From contig NZ_CP140155.1 in the NCBI RefSeq assembly GCF_034479375.1, positions 310,001-374,000 of the forward strand: a stretch of 64,000 bases of DNA, read 5' to 3'. The DNA comes from Rhodopseudomonas palustris (lineage in GTDB: Bacteria; Pseudomonadota; Alphaproteobacteria; Rhizobiales; Xanthobacteraceae). Below the pieces are notes generated by a model. It saw only the letters and a program-made list of their open reading frames with translations. It was not told the DNA's origin and made no database searches. The position numbers and the translations under genes are program-made. Positions 13,616-23,643 of this stretch are shown here, piece by piece (the first letter of the stretch is position 1; each line of letters begins with the position of its first letter).

Positions 13616-14590
13616 TCACTGCATCGCCGCGACCCTGATCCCGGTCGGCCCGAGGATCACCACGAACAGCACCGGCAGGAAGAACAGGATCATCGGCACC
13701 GTCAGCTTCGGCGGCAGGGCGGCCGCCTTCTTCTCGGCGTCGTTCATCCGCATGTCGCGATTTTCCTGCGCCATCACCCGCAGGCTCTGGCTGAGCGGCG
13801 TGCCGTAGCGTTCCGACTGCTGCAGGGCGAGGCAGACCGACTTGACGCCGTCCAGCCCGGTGCGGGTCGCGAGGTTTTCATAGGCCTGCTTGCGGTCGGG
13901 CAGATAGGAAAGCTCCGCCGTCGTCAGCGTGAATTCTTCCGCCAGCGGGATCGACTGGGTGCCGATCTCGACCGCCACCTTGCGGAACGCCGCCTCGATC
14001 GACATGCCGGATTCGATGCAGATCAGCAGCAGGTCGAGCGCGTCGGGAAACGCGCGCCGGATCGAGAGCTGGCGCTTGGTGATGGCGTTCTTCAGGAACA
14101 GCATCGGCGCCTGCATGCCGAGAAACACGGCGGCGATGCAGAGGCCGACCTTGATCGGCGTCGACTGCTCCATGTTCGACAGCACGAATACGTAGACCGC
14201 CGCCGCGAGGCCGAACGCGATCGGCATCACCATGCGGAAGAACAGGAAGGTGATGTAGGGCGCCTGGCCGCGATAGCCCGCCATCACCAGCTTTTCGCGC
14301 GCGCTCTCCTGAGCGACCCATTTGCCGAGATTGAGGTCGTCGACGATCTTGGCGACGACCTGCTTGGGCGCCTGCCGCAGCGACACCCGCTCGGCCTTGG
14401 CGAGCCGGTCGCGCTCGCGCTGGCGGATGCGTTCGCGCTCGCTGCCGACCGCCTTCATCCGCTTGGTCAGCGTCTCGCCGACGAACAGCGGCATCACCAG
14501 CGTGTAGACCGTGGCGCTGACGGCGATCGACGCCAGCAGCATCGTCATGAAGCGGGCGTCGTGAATCTTCTCGATCAGGAACTCGATCAT
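13616..14590 (-). CDS. tadC: Flp pilus inner-membrane platform protein TadC
   Basis: Protein of 324 aa starting at ATG 14590 (MIEFLIEKIHDARFMTMLLA); the frame is open further upstream but that part lies inside tadB. It has an N-terminal TM helix, a basic cytoplasmic segment, paired TM helices about residues 125-175, a T2SSF domain (AFPDALDLLLICIESGMSIE, LTTAELSYLPDRKQAYENLA) and a C-terminal TM (PMILFFLPVLFVVILGP). TadC pairs with TadB as the inner-membrane platform on which the TadA ATPase acts. It starts 12 bp after the tadB stop in a run of minus-strand cpa/tad genes. Confidence 0.9.
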   Translation of the reverse strand: MIEFLIEKIHDARFMTMLLASIAVSATVYTLVMPLFVGETLTKRMKAVGSERERIRQRERDRLAKAERVSLRQAPKQVVAKIVDDLNLGKWVAQESAREKLVMAGYRGQAPYITFLFFRMVMPIAFGLAAAVYVFVLSNMEQSTPIKVGLCIAAVFLGMQAPMLFLKNAITKRQLSIRRAFPDALDLLLICIESGMSIEAAFRKVAVEIGTQSIPLAEEFTLTTAELSYLPDRKQAYENLATRTGLDGVKSVCLALQQSERYGTPLSQSLRVMAQENRDMRMNDAEKKAAALPPKLTVPMILFFLPVLFVVILGPTGIRVAAMQ

Positions 14591-14601
14591 CGCGGCCGCC
14601 T

Positions 14602-15864
14602 TCAGAAATCGAAGTTGATCATCTTCTTCATCACCAGGATGCCCGCGGACATCCACAGCACGCAGCCGGCCAGCATCAGCCGGCCGGTCGGGTGGGTCCA
14701 CAGCAGCGCGATGTAGTCCGGCGTCGACAGATAGACCAGCAGCATCACGATCGGCGGCAGCGAGCCGATGATCGCCGCCGAGGCCTTGGCCTCCATCGAC
14801 ATCGCCTGGATCTTCTCGGCCATCTTCTTGCGGTCGCGCAGCACCTTGGACAGGTTGCCGAGCGCTTCAGACAGATTGCCGCCGGACTTCTGCTGGATCG
14901 AGATCACGATGCCGAAGAAATTGGCTTCCGGCACCGGCATCCGGTCGTACAGCCGGGCGCAGGCGTCGCCGAGCGGCATGCCGATCGCCTGGGTCTCGAT
15001 GATGGCGTTGAACTCGCTCTTCAGCGGCTCCGGCGAATCCGCCGCGACCACCTTGAGCGAGTCGAACAGCGGCAGGCCGGCCTTGATGCCGCGCACGATC
15101 ACGTCGACGGCGTCCGGCAGCGCGTTCAGGAATTTCCGTTCGCGGCGCTTCTTGAGGAAGCCCAGCATCCAGCGCGGCAGACCGAAACCGGCGGCGAAAG
15201 CCAGTCCGACGGCTGCGATCAACCCGCCATAGCCGTCGCGCTCGACGGAAACGTCGTATGTGGCGATGGGCTGCCCATCGACGCCGATCACCGTCACACT
15301 CGTCCGGCCGACGGTGGCGGCCGCGATGAAGATTTGCTGGTTCGAGCGCACGATCGCATTCGCAACCGCCGAATTCGAGACCCGCACGCCCCTGACCTCG
15401 CGCTGGAGATCGACGACGATCGAACGGTCGGGGCCGAGATCGATGGTGCGGGTTTTCGATTGCGGGTCGCTCAGCACCGGCGCGGTCGCGGGATCTCTGC
15501 CGCCGCTGGGGCCGAGCGTCGCGAAGAATGCGACCGCGAAGACCACCGCCGCCAGCCCCGCCGATACGCCGATGAACTTGTTCGGTGTCCAGTCGAGCCC
15601 TGCCTGGGTCAGTTTGGTGCCGAGCGCGACGTTCTTCCGCTTCTGGTTGCGCGCCTCGATCTCGCGCAGCGATCCTTCGACCTGCTCGCGGCGCGAGCGC
15701 TGCGATTTCTCGATCTGGCGCACCGCCGGCGTCGTGCGCGCGACCGATGTGCGGCGTTGCTCGGCCTGCTTCTCGCCGGACAGCAGCGGATAGATGAAGA
15801 CCCAGGCCAGCCCGCCGACGGAGACGGCGGCGAGGAAACCGAGGGCGAGCGATTGCATCTGCAT
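14602..15864 (-). CDS. tadB: Flp pilus inner-membrane platform protein TadB with inserted secretin-N-like domain
   Basis: Protein of 420 aa, about 100 aa longer than usual TadB. Layout: TM1 (5-28); a basic, probably cytoplasmic segment (31-95); TM2 (97-117); an extra domain (about 138-210); TM3 (213-230); a T2SSF domain (FLNALPDAVDVIVRGIKAGL onward); two C-terminal TM helices. The extra part (RSIVVDLQREVRGVRVSNSA, AVANAIVRSNQQIFIAAATV, GQPIATYDVSVERD) matches residues 61-125 of the CpaC secretin of the same locus without gaps. The positive-inside rule places it in the periplasm. TadB otherwise forms the inner-membrane platform with TadC. The fusion is in frame and flanked by intact helices, so it is not an assembly error in any obvious way. 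Confidence 0.88.
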   Translation of the reverse strand: MQMQSLALGFLAAVSVGGLAWVFIYPLLSGEKQAEQRRTSVARTTPAVRQIEKSQRSRREQVEGSLREIEARNQKRKNVALGTKLTQAGLDWTPNKFIGVSAGLAAVVFAVAFFATLGPSGGRDPATAPVLSDPQSKTRTIDLGPDRSIVVDLQREVRGVRVSNSAVANAIVRSNQQIFIAAATVGRTSVTVIGVDGQPIATYDVSVERDGYGGLIAAVGLAFAAGFGLPRWMLGFLKKRRERKFLNALPDAVDVIVRGIKAGLPLFDSLKVVAADSPEPLKSEFNAIIETQAIGMPLGDACARLYDRMPVPEANFFGIVISIQQKSGGNLSEALGNLSKVLRDRKKMAEKIQAMSMEAKASAAIIGSLPPIVMLLVYLSTPDYIALLWTHPTGRLMLAGCVLWMSAGILVMKKMINFDF

Positions 15865-15877
15865 GGATCGCTTCCCC

Positions 15878-17329
15878 TCAGGTGACGACTGCGACTTCGG
15901 CGGCGTCGAGCGCCGCGGCGAGCCGCTTCTCCTCGCCGTAATAGCGCGCGCGTTCCCAGAAACGCGGTCGGCCGATCCCGGTCGAGCGATGCCGGCCGAC
16001 GATGTGGCCGTTGGCGTCCTCGCCGATGATGTCGTAGATGAACAGATCCTGGGTGATGATGGTGTCGCCTTCCATCCCCATCACCTCGGTGATGTGGGTG
16101 ATCCGGCGCGAGCCGTCGCGCAGCCGCGCGGCCTGGATGATGACGTCGATCGAGGCGCAGATCATCTCGCGGATGGTGCGCGACGGCAGCGAGAAACCGC
16201 CCATGGTGATCATCGATTCGCAGCGCGACAGCGCCTCGCGCGGGTTGTTGGCGTGCAGCGTGCCCATCGAGCCGTCGTGGCCGGTGTTCATCGCCTGCAA
16301 CAGGTCGAACGCCTCGGGTCCGCGGACTTCGCCGACGATGATCCGCTCCGGCCGCATACGCAGGCAGTTGCGCACCAGTTCGCGCATCGTCACCTGGCCT
16401 TCGCCCTCGATGTTCGGCGGCCTGGTTTCGAGGCGCACCACGTGCGGCTGCTGCAATTGCAGTTCGGCGGCGTCTTCGCAGGTGATGATGCGCTCGTCGT
16501 CGTCGATGTAGTTAGTCAGGCAGTTCAGCAGCGTGGTCTTGCCGGAGCCGGTGCCGCCGGAGATCAGCACGTTGCAGCGGGTGCGGCCGATGATCTGCAG
16601 GATCTGCGCGCCCTCCGGCGTGATCGCGCCGAATTTGACGAGCTGGTCGAGCGTCAGCTTGTCCTTCTTGAATTTGCGGATAGTGAGCGCGGGGCCGTCG
16701 ATCGCCAGCGGCGGCACGATGGCGTTGACGCGGCTGCCGTCGGCGAGGCGGGCGTCGCAGATCGGCGAGGATTCGTCGACGCGCCGGCCGACCTGGCTGA
16801 CGATGCGCTGGCAGATGTTCAGGAGCTGCTGGTTGTCGCGGAATCGGATGCCGGTGCGCTGGATCCGCCCGGCGACTTCGATGAACACCGTGCCGGCGCC
16901 GTTGACCATGATGTCGGAGATGTCGTCGCGCGACAGCAGCGGCTCCAGCGGACCGTAGCCGAGCACGTCGTTGCAGATGTCGTCGAGCAGCTCTTCCTGC
17001 TCGGCGATCGACATCACGATGTTCTTGATCGCGATGATCTCGTTGACGATGTCGCGGATTTCCTCGCGCGCGGATTCGGCGTCGAGCTTGGCGAGCTGCG
17101 CCAGGTCGATCGCCTCGATCAGCGCGCCGAAGATCGTCGCCTTGACCTGGTAGTAGGTGTCGGAGCGGCGGCTCTCGACCTGCGGCGGCGGCGCGCTGCG
17201 GGCCGGCGCCAGCGGCGGCGAGGCGATCGCTGCGGGCGCGTCGGACGCGCGCGACATCGGCTCCGGAGCCGGGCTCACCGGCTTCGAAGCACGAACCTCT
17301 TGATCTGCACCGCTACGCTTACCGAACAC
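15878..17329 (-). CDS. cpaF: Flp pilus secretion ATPase TadA/CpaF
   Basis: Hexameric type II/IV secretion ATPase of 483 aa, starting with GTG at 17329. A Pro/Ala-rich N-terminal tail (to about 55) precedes the N-domain. Walker A is GGTGSGKT (258-265), followed by the Asp box (ITCEDAAELQLQQPHVVRLE), Walker B region (RPERIIVGEVRGPEAFDLLQ) and His box (GHDGSMGTLHANNPREAL). It powers polymerisation, and possibly retraction, of Flp pili at the TadBC platform. It sits between cpaE and tadB with short gaps, in one operon. Confidence 0.95.
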   Translation of the reverse strand: MFGKRSGADQEVRASKPVSPAPEPMSRASDAPAAIASPPLAPARSAPPPQVESRRSDTYYQVKATIFGALIEAIDLAQLAKLDAESAREEIRDIVNEIIAIKNIVMSIAEQEELLDDICNDVLGYGPLEPLLSRDDISDIMVNGAGTVFIEVAGRIQRTGIRFRDNQQLLNICQRIVSQVGRRVDESSPICDARLADGSRVNAIVPPLAIDGPALTIRKFKKDKLTLDQLVKFGAITPEGAQILQIIGRTRCNVLISGGTGSGKTTLLNCLTNYIDDDERIITCEDAAELQLQQPHVVRLETRPPNIEGEGQVTMRELVRNCLRMRPERIIVGEVRGPEAFDLLQAMNTGHDGSMGTLHANNPREALSRCESMITMGGFSLPSRTIREMICASIDVIIQAARLRDGSRRITHITEVMGMEGDTIITQDLFIYDIIGEDANGHIVGRHRSTGIGRPRFWERARYYGEEKRLAAALDAAEVAVVT

Positions 17330-17350: not shown

Positions 17351-18628
17351 TTATTTGGCCCGCAGCTTCTCCAGGATCGGCGACAGGAATCCGCCCTTCG
17401 GCTTCTTGGCTTCGCCGCGTCCGGTCAGCCGCTGGGCGATCTGCAGGAACATATCCGTGGTCTTGTGGCTCGCCGCGATCTCGGCGATCATCTGGCCGTT
17501 GTTGGCGGCGGCGCCGAACATCTGCGGGTCGAACGGGATGCTGACGATCGGCGAGCTTTCGATCGCCTTGGCGAATTCGCCGGAATTGATCTCCGGCCGC
17601 TTCGGCACGCCGACCTGGTTGAGGCAGTACAGCGGCGGCCGGTCGTTCGGGCGCGACGCCTTCAGCAGGTCGTAGAGGTTCTTGGTGTTGCGCAGATTGG
17701 CGAGGTCCGGCGTCGCGACGATCAGGATGTCGTCGGCGTTGATCAGCGCCCGCTTGGTCCAGCCGGTCCATTGATGCGGCACGTCGAGCACGATGCAGGG
17801 CATCGTCGAGCGCAGCGTATCGAAGATCGTGTCGAACGCTTCGGTGCCGAAATCGTAGACCCGGTCCAGCGTCGCCGGCGCGGCCAGCAGGCTGAGATGG
17901 TCGGTGCATTTCGACAGCAGGCGGTCGACGAAGGCGGTGTCGACGCGGTCCGGCGAGAACACCGCCTCGGCGATGCCCTGCGGCGGGTCCTGGTTGTAGT
18001 CGAGGCCGGCGGTGCCGAACGCCAGATCGAGATCCGCGACCACGGCATCCAGCGCCAGGTCGCGCGCGATCGCCCAGGCGACGTTGTGCGCGATGGTCGA
18101 GGCGCCGACGCCGCCCTTGGCGCCGACCACCGCGATGATGCGGCCGACCGCCTTGGCTTCCGGCGCGGAGAACAGGTTGCAGATCGAACGCACGACGTCG
18201 ATCGGCTCCAGCGGCGTGATGGCGTAGTCGCTGACGCCGCGGCGGACCAGTTCGCGATACAGCGTGACGTCATTGACCTTGCCGATCACGATGACGCGGG
18301 TGCCGGGATCGCACACGGTGGCGAGCTGATCGAGGCCGGCGAGCACGTCGCTGCGCGGGTCGGTCTCCAGGATGATGACGTTGGGCGTCGGCGCCGAGCG
18401 ATAGGCCTCGATCGCCGCGGCCATGCCGCCCATCTGGATCTTGAGATGCGCTTTGGCGAGGCGGCGGTCTTCGCCGGCGGCCTGCACCGCCGCGGCGGTG
18501 TCGACCGACTCGCAGAAGGCCTGGACCGATACGCGCGGCGCCGGCGCGATGTGCTCGTCCGGCGTCGCGGCGCCCGTCGGCGCGCCGTCCGCGGGCTCGT
18601 CCTGGTTCTGGCGTCCGTAGCTGATCAT
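17351..18628 (-). CDS. cpaE: Flp pilus localisation ATPase CpaE/TadZ
   Basis: Protein of 425 aa with an N-terminal receiver-like domain (about 60-155, lacking obvious phospho-acceptor chemistry) and a MinD/ParA ATPase domain with deviant Walker A KGGVGAS (171-177). In Caulobacter, CpaE directs the pilus machine to the cell pole. ATG 18628 overlaps the cpaD stop (ATGA), so the two are translationally coupled. The cpaF start is 21 bp downstream. Confidence 0.92.
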   Translation of the reverse strand: MISYGRQNQDEPADGAPTGAATPDEHIAPAPRVSVQAFCESVDTAAAVQAAGEDRRLAKAHLKIQMGGMAAAIEAYRSAPTPNVIILETDPRSDVLAGLDQLATVCDPGTRVIVIGKVNDVTLYRELVRRGVSDYAITPLEPIDVVRSICNLFSAPEAKAVGRIIAVVGAKGGVGASTIAHNVAWAIARDLALDAVVADLDLAFGTAGLDYNQDPPQGIAEAVFSPDRVDTAFVDRLLSKCTDHLSLLAAPATLDRVYDFGTEAFDTIFDTLRSTMPCIVLDVPHQWTGWTKRALINADDILIVATPDLANLRNTKNLYDLLKASRPNDRPPLYCLNQVGVPKRPEINSGEFAKAIESSPIVSIPFDPQMFGAAANNGQMIAEIAASHKTTDMFLQIAQRLTGRGEAKKPKGGFLSPILEKLRAK

Positions 18629-19353
18629 GGTCCGACGTTGCTCACTTGGGCCTTCGCGGTGGCTTCGGGCTTGGTGGTCCGGTAGGTCTCGAAGGTGACG
18701 CCGCGGCGCGCCGTGTAGGCCGGCGTCTCCGGCCGCGGCTGCACCAGATCCGACGGATTATCCACCATGGCGGCGAGGTTGCGCTGGTTGGCGCAGCCGA
18801 AATTCCAGTACGGCTTGTTGTCCAGATAGCCCTTGTTCTTGATCGACGGGCCGATGTCCTCGGGCCACAGCCCGCACGGGCCGGCGACCGCGGCGACCTT
18901 CGGATAGAGCATGCGGATCGCCGCGAAGGCGCGCTGATCGGCGGGGTGGTAGGGCTTCACGACGACGCCGCGCGCCGGCACGCCGCCGGCGACCAGCAGC
19001 GACTGGATCTCGCGCATCGTCTCGCCCGCGGCGCGGGCGTTCGGCGTGCCGGAGGGCACTTCGGCGATGATCGAGCCGGTGCCTTCGCGCAGCCAGTCGC
19101 GGCCGAACGCGACGACGTCGGCGCGCTGCGTCGCGGTCAGGCCGCCGCGGCCGTTGCCGACGAACACCACGACGCTGCGATCCGCTTCCTGGATCGCGAT
19201 CGGGTGGCGCTGCCGGTAGTCGTTGGGAATGCTCGCGGTGACCTCGTCGTTGGCGCTGGTGTGGGTGCATGCGCCCATCGACAGCGATACGGCGATCAGA
19301 GCGGCCCCACAGGTGAGGCCGCGAATGGCACGGGCGGGTGTCCTGGATGTCAT
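18625..19353 (-). CDS. cpaD: pilus assembly lipoprotein CpaD
   Basis: Protein of 242 aa from ATG 19353 (MTSRTPARAIRGL); the frame is open for 64 more codons, but these overlap the end of cpaC. The signal peptide ends SMGAC, a lipobox. The body contains the CpaD-family pattern VVVFVGNGRGGLTATQRADV and a Cys pair region (AGPCGLWPEDIGPS, NFGCANQRNLAAMVDNPSDL). CpaD is thought to assist the secretin in the outer membrane/periplasm. The cpaC stop lies 19 bp upstream. Confidence 0.9.
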   Translation of the reverse strand: MTSRTPARAIRGLTCGAALIAVSLSMGACTHTSANDEVTASIPNDYRQRHPIAIQEADRSVVVFVGNGRGGLTATQRADVVAFGRDWLREGTGSIIAEVPSGTPNARAAGETMREIQSLLVAGGVPARGVVVKPYHPADQRAFAAIRMLYPKVAAVAGPCGLWPEDIGPSIKNKGYLDNKPYWNFGCANQRNLAAMVDNPSDLVQPRPETPAYTARRGVTFETYRTTKPEATAKAQVSNVGP

Positions 19354-19372
19354 CGTCCTGTCCTCGTCCCGC

Positions 19373-20812
19373 TCAGTCGGTGATGAAGCCGAACCGGCCC
19401 CGGTAGGTCCGGCTCTGGCCGGTGCGGCCGGGGACGCCGTAGATCCTGTTGATGCTGCCGAGCAGATCCGACTGCGGATCGGAGGCGTCGGCGAAGCCGT
19501 CGTCGGGCCGCGACAGATCCTTCGGCGCCACCGCGCGCACCACATAGGGCGTCACCAGAACCATCAGTTCGGTCTGGCGGTTGATGTAGTCGCGGCTGCG
19601 GAACAGCGTGCCGAGGATCGGCAGTTGGGTCATGCCGGGCAGGCCGTTGATCGCCTGCTTGGTCTGTTCCTGGATCAGGCCGGCCATCGCCAGCGAGCCG
19701 CCGGAGGGAATTTCCACCGTGCTGTCGACCCGGCGGGTCTTGATCGAGGGCACCGACAGGCCGCTGATGGTGATCGAATTGTCGCTCGAGACCTCGGAGA
19801 CCTCGGTCGCGACTTTCAGGCTGATCCGGCCTTCGGTCAGCACCACGGGTGTGAAGTTGAGCAGCACGCCGAACTTCTTGAAGGTCACCGAGGGCGTGCA
19901 GAGGCTGTTGGTACAGGTCACGCCGCTCGGCACCGGAAATTCGCCGCCGGCGAGGAAGCTCGCCGGTTCGCCGGAAATCGCGGTCAGGTTCGGCTCGGCC
20001 AGCGTCCGCACCACGCCGGCGCTCTCCATCGCCTTCAGCGTCGCCGTGATCGACGGCCCGTTGCCGAACGACGTCGTCAGCGCGTTGCCCGAAACCAGCG
20101 CGGCGCCGGACTGGGTGAACGGGTTGGTGTTGGTGAATTTCACCACCGAGGTGCCGTAGCTCAAATTGGCGGTCAGATCGACGCCGAGTTGCTTGATGAC
20201 GTCGCGCTGCACTTCGGCCACGGTGATCTTCAGCATCACCTGGTCGCGGCCGCGGATCGCGATGTTGTTGACCACCTTGCTGGCGTCGCCGGCCAGCCGC
20301 GCGGCGAGATCGGCCGCCTGTTGCGACTCGATCGGCGTCGCCACCGAGCCCATGAGAATCACGCCGTCGCCGAGACCCTCGACATGGATGTCGCCGTTCG
20401 GGATCGACTGCCGCAGCGCGGTGCGGATGCCGTTGAGATCGCGGGTCACCGCGATGTCGTAGGCGGCGATCTGCTGGCCGGTCGAGTCGAAGAACACGAT
20501 GTTGGTCTGGCCGACGGCGGCGCCGATGATGTAGGCGCGCTGCGCCGACCGCACCACGGCGTTGGCGATCTTCGGATCGGCGACCAGAACGTCCTTGATG
20601 TCGCGCGGCAGGTCGATCACCACCGATTTGCCGATGCCGAGCGCGAGCGGCTGTGCGTTCATCCCGCCGCCCGTCTGCGCCGCGGTCGCCCGATAGTCGC
20701 TGGCCTTCACCGGCGTCCAGGTCGGCAGCAGCGTCAGCGCGACGACGGCGGTGAACGCCATCGCCGTGCCTTTCAGCGTCCGGATGAATCGGTGATTGGT
20801 GCCGCAGCTCAT
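19373..20812 (-). CDS. cpaC: Flp pilus secretin CpaC/RcpA
   Basis: Outer-membrane secretin of 479 aa. It has a signal peptide (to about 37), a pilus-assembly N-terminal domain (56-125, GKSVVIDLPRDIKDVLVADP), a BON-like segment (about 127-185, IRTALRQSIPNGDIHVEGLG) and the secretin core (VRTLAEPNLTAISGEPASFL, AGGEFPVP, PSGGSLAMAGLI, LPILGTLFRSRDYINRQTEL, VTPYVV). It forms the outer-membrane channel for the pilus. It lies between cpaB (14 bp upstream) and cpaD. Its N-terminal domain is the one found again inside TadB and in the stand-alone protein at 23152. Confidence 0.95.
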   Translation of the reverse strand: MSCGTNHRFIRTLKGTAMAFTAVVALTLLPTWTPVKASDYRATAAQTGGGMNAQPLALGIGKSVVIDLPRDIKDVLVADPKIANAVVRSAQRAYIIGAAVGQTNIVFFDSTGQQIAAYDIAVTRDLNGIRTALRQSIPNGDIHVEGLGDGVILMGSVATPIESQQAADLAARLAGDASKVVNNIAIRGRDQVMLKITVAEVQRDVIKQLGVDLTANLSYGTSVVKFTNTNPFTQSGAALVSGNALTTSFGNGPSITATLKAMESAGVVRTLAEPNLTAISGEPASFLAGGEFPVPSGVTCTNSLCTPSVTFKKFGVLLNFTPVVLTEGRISLKVATEVSEVSSDNSITISGLSVPSIKTRRVDSTVEIPSGGSLAMAGLIQEQTKQAINGLPGMTQLPILGTLFRSRDYINRQTELMVLVTPYVVRAVAPKDLSRPDDGFADASDPQSDLLGSINRIYGVPGRTGQSRTYRGRFGFITD

Positions 20813-20825
20813 ATCCGTCCCCTGA

Positions 20826-21623
20826 TCACTTCGGCGTCGTCGTCGGCGTGGAGACGCCGAACCGCACGACGTTGATGCTGTCCCGCTTGCCGCCGATCTC
20901 TTCGGTCCGGGCCGGGGCGTTGGCGTCGGCGAGGCTGCGCAGCGCCAGCGACAGCGTGCCGCTCTGCCGCGCGCGCGCCAGGAATTCCGCCTGATCGGGC
21001 TTCAGTTCGAGCGTCGCGGTCTTGCCGACCACGACCTTCTGGCCGTTCTTTTCCTCGACGGTCTGGTCGATCGCGAGAATCCGCACGTTGCTGAGGATGA
21101 TCTCGGAGTTGACGACGTCGCCGCTCTGGCCCCGATCGGGATTCTGGTCGCGCTTCGACAGGATGACGTCGACCCGATCGTTCGGCAGGATGAAGCCGCC
21201 GGCGCCGGTCTCCGGCGAGATTTCCGTCGAGATCGCGCGCATCCCGGTCGGCAGGATCGCGGCCATGAATCCGGAGCCGTTGGCTTTCACCAGCTTCTGT
21301 TCGCGGATCGGTTCGCCGGCGATGAAGGGCGAGCGCGCGATCGAGCCGGCGAGCTGCGTGCTGGCGTCGGGGCGCTCGCTGCGGAGGATGAAATTGGAGC
21401 TGGCGGTGGCGGCCGGCCAGGTCTGCCACTGCACGTCCGCGGGCCCGACCGGCTGGCCGAGCGGAATGTCGGACTTGGCGACAAGTACGTCGACCGTCGC
21501 CAGTTGCGCGACGGGCGCGGCCGGGCCGGCGGTCTCCTGTCCGCCGATGCCGCTCGCCAGATAGGCGGCGACGGCGCCGGCGCCGACAGCGATGACAAGA
21601 ACGACGATGCGCGCGGTATTCAT
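20826..21623 (-). CDS. cpaB: Flp pilus assembly protein CpaB/RcpC
   Basis: Protein of 265 aa from ATG 21623 (MNTARIVVLVIAVGAGAVAA), preceded by a GGAAG ribosome site; upstream codons in the same frame are intergenic. There is one N-terminal TM/signal, then a SAF domain (about 43-105, VDVLVAKSDIPLGQPVGPAD) and a RcpC-type periplasmic domain (GGFILPNDRVDVILSKRDQN). CpaB is a periplasmic partner of the secretin. First gene of the cpaBCDEF-tadBC run. Confidence 0.9.
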   Translation of the reverse strand: MNTARIVVLVIAVGAGAVAAYLASGIGGQETAGPAAPVAQLATVDVLVAKSDIPLGQPVGPADVQWQTWPAATASSNFILRSERPDASTQLAGSIARSPFIAGEPIREQKLVKANGSGFMAAILPTGMRAISTEISPETGAGGFILPNDRVDVILSKRDQNPDRGQSGDVVNSEIILSNVRILAIDQTVEEKNGQKVVVGKTATLELKPDQAEFLARARQSGTLSLALRSLADANAPARTEEIGGKRDSINVVRFGVSTPTTTPK

Positions 21624-21699
21624 ACGCTTTACTTCCCGGGGTAACTCGGCGACGGACCACGCCGCAGTACCGGGAGTTGACCAGCTAATCGTCAAGGCA

Positions 21700-22775: not shown

Positions 22776-23151
22776 CGTGGAGCTCCATGTACAACGTGGC
22801 TGTCGAACTAACTTTGGTCTTTCCGGCGTTCTCAGCACCGCGACCATGACGTCAACCTAGGATCTGGAAATTGCAGCGCAGTTAATTCGATTGCAGAAAC
22901 ATGCGTTTTACGGCCACTTCTCGGGTACGGTAAATGCCGGATTAAACTGGTGAAAAGTCGATCGAATGCGGCAACGGACTACCCATCCTGATTGCATTCG
23001 CGCAGCCGTTGCGTCGTATTCGGACAGAGTGTCGCGAATTCGATGCATCGCGTTTGCGGTTCGTTCATCAATTAACGGCACCTTCGCCATGTCGGGCGCC
23101 GGCCCGCTGCGTATCTGCTTTAGCCGGCTTGTTGATGTCCCGGAGTACAGT
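22776..23151. other. 376-bp divergent intergenic region of the pilus locus
   Basis: It separates the pilin gene (minus) from the secretin-N-domain gene (plus). A minus-strand frame of 119 codons runs through 22908-23267, but it overlaps the start of the plus-strand gene and has no recognisable domain. The sequence is richer in A/T than its surroundings, as expected of two promoters. No convincing -35/-10 pair or protein-binding dyad could be assigned by eye. Confidence 0.4.
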
Positions 23152-23643
23152 ATGTCGACCAGCTCCTCGCGCCGGATGCGCGCAGCGCTCGTGGTGTCTT
23201 CTTTCATATGCGGCCTGATGCCGTTGTCCGCCGTGTCGGCGGGCACAGAAGAGACCGTTTCCGTCAATGTCGATCAGGCCAAGCTGATCAGGCTCCCGCA
23301 GAACATCTCGACGCTGGTGGTCGGCAATCCGCTCATCGCCGACGTCGCGATGCAGCCCGGCGGCATGGTCGTCGTCACCGGCAAAGGCTATGGCGCCACC
23401 AATGTGATCGCGATGGACCGCAAGGGGACGGTGATCGCCGATCGTCTGATCCAGGTCGAGGGTCCCGACAAGGTGGTGACGGTGTATCGCGGGGTCGATC
23501 GCGAGTCCTATAGCTGCACGCCGGTGTGCCAGCGCCGGATCACGCTCGGCGATTCCGAGGGCTACTTCAAATCCACCATCGACCAGGCCGGCAATCTCAA
23601 CGCCCAGGCGACCGGCGCAGCGACGGGCCCCAAGGGCAACTGA
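23152..23643 (+). CDS. secreted stand-alone secretin-N-type domain protein of the pilus locus
   Basis: Protein of 163 aa from ATG 23152 with CGGAG at 23141-23145. The signal peptide (to about 30, ending SAVSA) is followed by a pilus-assembly N-terminal domain (36-104: ISTLVVGNPLIADVAMQPGG, YGATNVIAMDRKGTVIADRL) like the one in CpaC, but with no secretin core. The tail carries two cysteines (YSCTPVCQRR), which could form a disulphide. The role is unknown; it could cap or tether the secretin in the periplasm. It is the third copy of this domain in the locus. Confidence 0.85.
   Translation: MSTSSSRRMRAALVVSSFICGLMPLSAVSAGTEETVSVNVDQAKLIRLPQNISTLVVGNPLIADVAMQPGGMVVVTGKGYGATNVIAMDRKGTVIADRLIQVEGPDKVVTVYRGVDRESYSCTPVCQRRITLGDSEGYFKSTIDQAGNLNAQATGAATGPKGN

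Follow-up and report, generated by a model that had tools for sequence, protein, structure and literature searches.

The window analysed here is a 64,000-nucleotide stretch of the Rhodopseudomonas palustris contig NZ_CP140155.1 (positions 310,001 to 374,000), and our subject is the tadB gene of its Tad pilus (tad) locus, which encodes an inner-membrane platform protein. Profile and pairwise comparisons confirm, at the level of sequence, that the loop between the second and third transmembrane segments (TM2 and TM3) of this TadB holds a domain of the secretin N-terminal type (PF13629) with kinship to the N-domain of CpaC, the Tad secretin. The features on which this finding rests are the following.

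14602..15864, minus strand: tadB, Tad pilus inner-membrane platform protein, 420 aa, with T2SSF at residues 254-378
15229..15510, minus strand: the insert, TadB residues 119-212 between TM2 and TM3, modelled with eight strands; the link here is 4 residues long in most loci
15241..15453, minus strand: PF13629 (T2SS-T3SS_pil_N) match, TadB residues 138-208 (E 3.3e-13, 49.6 bits, cut-off 23)
19373..20812, minus strand: cpaC, Tad secretin, 479 aa
20444..20656, minus strand: PF13629 domain of CpaC, residues 53-123, the insert's closest paralogue group by profile, alignment and domain tree

The secretin-N-type domain of TadB

The PF13629 cut-off of 23 bits is exceeded both by the whole protein (49.6 bits, E 3.3e-13) and by residues 119-212 taken alone (53.7 bits). 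BLASTP joins TadB 143-210 to CpaC 58-125 in a single ungapped block with 30 of 68 positions identical and 47 of 68 positive (E 3e-15). The first-pass annotation of this DNA had counted 28 identities over 65 ungapped positions (CpaC 61-125) and proposed a profile search of residues 119-212 as a check; its alignment fits the BLASTP block, and the search gave the match just described. NCBIfam returned no match for the insert segment. A sequencing accident is unlikely: the gene is one open frame, the genome is a single contig, and PF13629 recurs in 115 of the 120 TadB protein clusters listed, a list biased by the query.

Hydropathy maxima lie at TadB residues 6-24, 97-115, 211-229, 361-379 and 394-412, and the net charge is +7 over residues 28-95, 0 over the insert and +5 over residues 233-361. 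By the positive-inside rule these flanking charges assign the insert, which lies between TM2 and TM3, to the periplasm, where the annotation had also placed it. When modelled alone, the insert is predicted to be an eight-stranded sandwich with a mean predicted local distance difference test (pLDDT) score of 85.6; its final strand reaches residue 207, and hydropathy puts the start of TM3 at about 211-212. The start of the TM3 helix in a whole-length TadB model agrees with hydropathy; this model has a mean pLDDT of 57.9 and a predicted template modelling score of 0.33, and apart from that start no topology was drawn from it. The best Foldseek match of the insert model is a VirB9 N-terminal domain, and a VirB9-like fold is reported for the Tad secretin N-domain; the structure-match lists do not exclude families missing from them. 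Searched against PDB sequences, the insert profile gave, up to E 1, one match only, a cyclodextrin glucanotransferase at E 0.29.

The protein is recognizable as a platform protein from its one T2SSF domain, the flanking membrane segments and its place in the tad locus. The short TM2-TM3 link that is usual for TadB, though not part of its definition, is replaced here by about 100 residues; because the T2SSF domain and the backbone remain those of TadB, we regard the protein as a TadB variant. It carries no secretin domain, so the insert is a domain relative of the RcpA/CpaC N-domain and not a secretin. The annotation's figure of about 100 aa for the excess over normal TadB agrees with the lengths of close relatives (322-324 aa) and with the 4-residue link measured in 123 of the 141 loci. 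It had also named two observations that would speak against a fusion, the lack of a profile match and the presence of the segment in most TadB proteins; neither was made.

Distribution, selection and origin

The fused TadB is genuine, but among relatives it is rare and patchily distributed. Fusions were searched for with a profile of insert plus TM3, which replaced an insert-only family search whose listed matches were mostly CpaC-like by open-frame length; the family, order, class and phylum samples overlap and count genomes that lack a tad locus in their denominators, and distant fusions may have escaped the profile. Within the genus the insert occurs in one of 16 genomes, the window's own, and in the other 15 congeners the link measures 4-5 residues. 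Three of 391 family genomes (G000, G195 and G583, the last by sequence the same record as Bradyrhizobium lablabi SZCCT0009) match the profile over its full length at E 1e-27; two further family genomes above the threshold were set aside as CpaC, matching only profile positions 2-93 and 2-94. Among the rows listed for 297 order, 337 class and 398 phylum genomes, a full-profile match was found in the window's own genome only. The named genomes gave 80 loci kept of 449 relatives, five with a 99-residue insert of PF13629 size and one with an insert of 127 residues.

Link lengths are bimodal across the 141 loci (duplicates included): besides the 123 with 4 residues, six fall between -1 and 5, nine at 99-100 and three at 127. 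The 127-residue insert of a Tardiphaga metagenome-assembled genome (MAG; G217) resembles FlgD_ig (PF13860) at 21.9 and 25.3 bits, below the cut-off of 27. A region search with this stretch found six proteins, the query's own kind included and two of them short pieces; the four scanned all match PF13860 at the same site (19.7-31.8 bits), one of which, at 31.8, is over the cut-off.

L099:1069-2409, minus strand: TadB with a FlgD-Ig-like insert (PF13860)
L138 (Tardiphaga sp. RYN_497 MAG), P0121-P0126: TadB with a FlgD-Ig-like insert (PF13860)

A second domain kind at this site shows that the TM2-TM3 loop accepts domains. One way to read this, which we consider rather unlikely, is that the loop serves as a swappable docking port, with secretin N-domains or FlgD-Ig (flagellar hook cap-like) domains exchanged among Nitrobacteraceae so as to rewire the coupling of platform and envelope. 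The loop may instead be permissive, with beta-sandwich domains coming and going as decoration not tied to any one partner in the Tad bridge, perhaps under pressure from pilus phages or other contacts of the machine. The FlgD-Ig-like domain at the same site speaks for decoration, as do the patchy distribution, with 10 label changes on the backbone tree described below (at least four of them forced), and the long branches of the inserts on the domain tree. We regard it as rather unlikely; selection on the insert and the 115 PF13629 matches among the 120 in the query-biased list count against it.

That selection is seen in six comparisons among four Bradyrhizobium MAG sequences, where the ratio of nonsynonymous to synonymous substitution rates (dN/dS) is 0.08-0.39 in the insert and 0.02-0.09 in the C-terminal part; in distant pairs, at a dS of about 0.7-1.1, the insert ratio rises to as much as 1.06. 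By these ratios the insert is kept, but loosely, within the Bradyrhizobium MAG group. Insert dS exceeds that of both flanking parts in the same six close comparisons, among the tadB genes of L129, L130, L132 and L133, a pattern that would fit local recombination and that can also be claimed for decoration. The insert could, finally, be a functionless, tolerated accident, as its absence from the 15 sampled congeners and its presence in only three of 391 family genomes might imply, but the dN/dS within the MAG group (which is not the window lineage) and the match kept in 115 of 120 listed clusters speak against this, and we judge it improbable. The alignments used were A2 (56 of the 120 protein matches plus the window), A3 (nine of 13 stretches) and A4 (the window's CpaC N-domain with 50 of the 66 distinct ones from named loci, and six TadB inserts).

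Turning to origin, the backbone tree was built from 116 of 209 different rows, 23 chosen protein matches among them. Its 28 insert rows, with the FlgD-type row counted as fused, need 10 changes, of which at least four are forced by starred branches, and the window groups with three insert-less rows at a Shimodaira-Hasegawa-like approximate likelihood-ratio (SH-aLRT) support of 96. The domain tree, from which the FlgD-type row was omitted, holds 27 of the 120 inserts, 26 of 93 CpaC loci plus the window and 10 of 38 CpaI-like loci plus the window. In it the inserts and CpaC N-domains are jointly split from the 11 CpaI-like rows at 100/100, and on this evidence the insert is kin of the CpaC N-domain rather than of CpaI. 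The grouping of all 27 inserts was not rejected (approximately unbiased test, p 0.157, with few columns and an unsettled bootstrap).

Whole-gene transfer into the window lineage was rejected: its backbone groups within the genus and shares 98% identity with P0065. The TadB of HaA2 (G008; identical to P0079) is 94% identical to that of the window over shared positions; codons flanking the insert site differ at 31 of 129 bases and the rest of tadB at 32 of 828 (odds ratio 7.9, p 9e-13). The same comparison in three insert-less control pairs gave odds ratios of 2.2-2.5. Fast divergence is thus usual for this region, with an excess in the window. Because its nearest relatives are short-looped and the insert-adjacent bases are unusually diverged, the data suggest that the window lineage acquired the insert, and the excess divergence would fit import of the insert plus its flanks by recombination. 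Import from a sampled insert-bearing lineage is not borne out: compared with six such tadB genes, the window's flanks show 35-41 differences in 129 bases, and compared with HaA2 in that alignment 29 in 126, so that none of the six is nearer. The fast divergence of the flank region in other pairs also counts against import. An unsampled donor, fast divergence after insertion or repeated loss in relatives are possible explanations.

A proposed role in the Tad bridge

Three PF13629 places exist in the genome, all within the window's tad locus. Apart from TadB and CpaC, the genes that bear on a role are these.

20826..21695, minus strand: cpaB (RcpC), alignment-complex protein (PF16976)
22966..23643, plus strand: stand-alone PF13629 protein, CpaI-like, start codon uncertain, with PF13629 at 23248-23460
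13616..14701, minus strand: tadC, second platform protein with T2SSF; the profile scan gave no PF13629 match

The name CpaI-like follows the description in PMC13170226 and not a comparison with Caulobacter CpaI, and a conserved C-terminal stretch of CpaB is taken as the equivalent of the published beta-hairpin. In published work, the RcpC C-terminal hairpin is modelled as completing the RcpA-N sheet and is required for function (PMC12307814), while the CpaB hairpin is modelled on CpaI and the C-terminal sheet of CpaI on CpaC-N (PMC13170226). Because these models put such donors on this domain type, we tentatively lean, at less than even likelihood, toward the TadB insert as an additional, non-obligatory acceptor for beta-hairpin donors (CpaB or CpaI) of the envelope bridge. 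The insert would grip either donor close to the inner membrane, with three acceptor copies if the trimer of heterodimers modelled for Caulobacter CpaG/CpaH (PMC13170226) applies to TadB and TadC here. Such a grip might tie the platform to the alignment cage or hold donors until the secretin takes over, and it may tune pilus assembly or retraction without being essential. That the insert shares the secretin's partner, one of two options in the first-pass annotation, is by this analogy possible.

Several points weigh against the acceptor role. RcpC lacking the hairpin still co-purified with RcpA-N (PMC12307814), and the CpaB hairpin in the published models points away from the inner membrane, so that contact would need unassembled CpaB, or CpaI. 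By eye, the CpaB C-termini do not set insert-bearing Bradyrhizobium apart from relatives without the insert, and all 15 sampled congeners lack the insert. The second domain kind in the same loop weakens the argument for a single obligatory partner. Moreover, 54 columns are invariant (>=95%) in 93 CpaC N-domains, and the larger group of TadB inserts (113 sequences) retains 21 of these at >=80%.

The other option of the annotation was that the insert docks like-with-like to the CpaC N-domain ring, linking the platform directly to the outer-membrane channel. The two domains are of the same family and in the same compartment, and the RcpA N-domain has been proposed to form a VirB9-like ring when stabilised. 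However, the domain ends 3-5 residues from TM3, and in PMC13170226 the Caulobacter periplasm at the Tad machine measures about 29-33 nm, with CpaB and CpaI modelled between; the RcpA:RcpC periplasmic part is modelled at 21 nm in PMC12307814, where RcpA-N alone is monomeric. Because the C-terminal link is short against such a distance, contact with the channel is unlikely, and with 33 of the 54 CpaC-invariant columns not kept in the larger insert group, we give ring docking very little credence. The same short link would suit an insert that works right at the mouth of the platform, steering subunits into or out of the shaft by acting on pilins, minor pilins or TadC; minor pilins are modelled atop the CpaG/CpaH trimer in Caulobacter (PMC13170226), but this domain type is not placed on pilins in the literature examined, and we judge such a role unlikely.

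Neighbouring genes and comparison with known systems

Two further genes of the locus are listed here.

15878..17329, minus strand: tadA/cpaF, motor ATPase directly upstream of tadB, named by eye
18625..19545, minus strand: cpaD (PF09476), start codon uncertain

Between the window and HaA2 there is no gross change in CpaB (95.6% over 270 residues), CpaC-N (97.6% over 83) or CpaI-N (94.8% over 77). The C-terminal tail of the CpaI-like protein (23461-23643, plus strand) resembles by eye the CpaB C-terminal stretch and also the tail of a CpaB-like open reading frame (ORF) in the Afipia loci L150 and L154, a likeness that would fit a shared donor motif. The congener loci L043 and L044 (G006 and G004) have no CpaI-like ORF in the stretch fetched and one PF13629 place per genome; their CpaB frames are 209 and 207 aa, as compared with 296 in the window, with the core missing by eye and the C-terminal stretch kept. 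Four genomes of genus code g25 (G039, G078, G099 and G148) have two CpaC-like PF13629 places each, in open frames some 513-526 aa long; each genome probably has two tad loci, and no fused TadB stands among the matches listed.

How the inner-membrane platform of a type IV pilus is coupled to the outer-membrane channel is an open question, for which Tad bridge models appeared in 2025 and 2026. The window's TadB, with the bridge's own docking domain type, and the insert-less TadB of HaA2 form a natural pair for studying assembly, retraction and phage entry. The annotation knew of no description of this fusion, and we found none, for PF13629 or any other domain inside TadB, in the open-licence PubMed Central literature searched. 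The present analysis adds that the insert occurs sporadically and is lacking in the nearest relatives, that its flanks are diverged and that a FlgD-type alternative occupies the same loop.

Compared with the RcpA/CpaC N-domain, the insert shares the PF13629 profile, sequence (30 of 68 positions with its own CpaC) and periplasmic location, and by prediction may share the fold, but it sits inside a platform protein instead of at a secretin N-terminus, and most CpaC-invariant columns are not kept in the larger insert group. CpaI, the small periplasmic Tad bridge protein, likewise carries this domain type outside a secretin; it stands alone and is modelled in the literature with a donor sheet at its C-terminus, whereas the insert is flanked by membrane segments and by eye lacks such a tail, and CpaI-like rows form a separate tree group. 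With TadB/CpaG (T2SSF, PF00482), the window protein has in common the T2SSF domain, the membrane segments and the place between tadA and tadC, and differs in having about 100 periplasmic residues where the usual link has about 4. The Tardiphaga-type TadB with a FlgD-Ig-like insert uses the same insertion site, yet its 127-residue insert belongs to another family (PF13860), with no PF13629 match listed.
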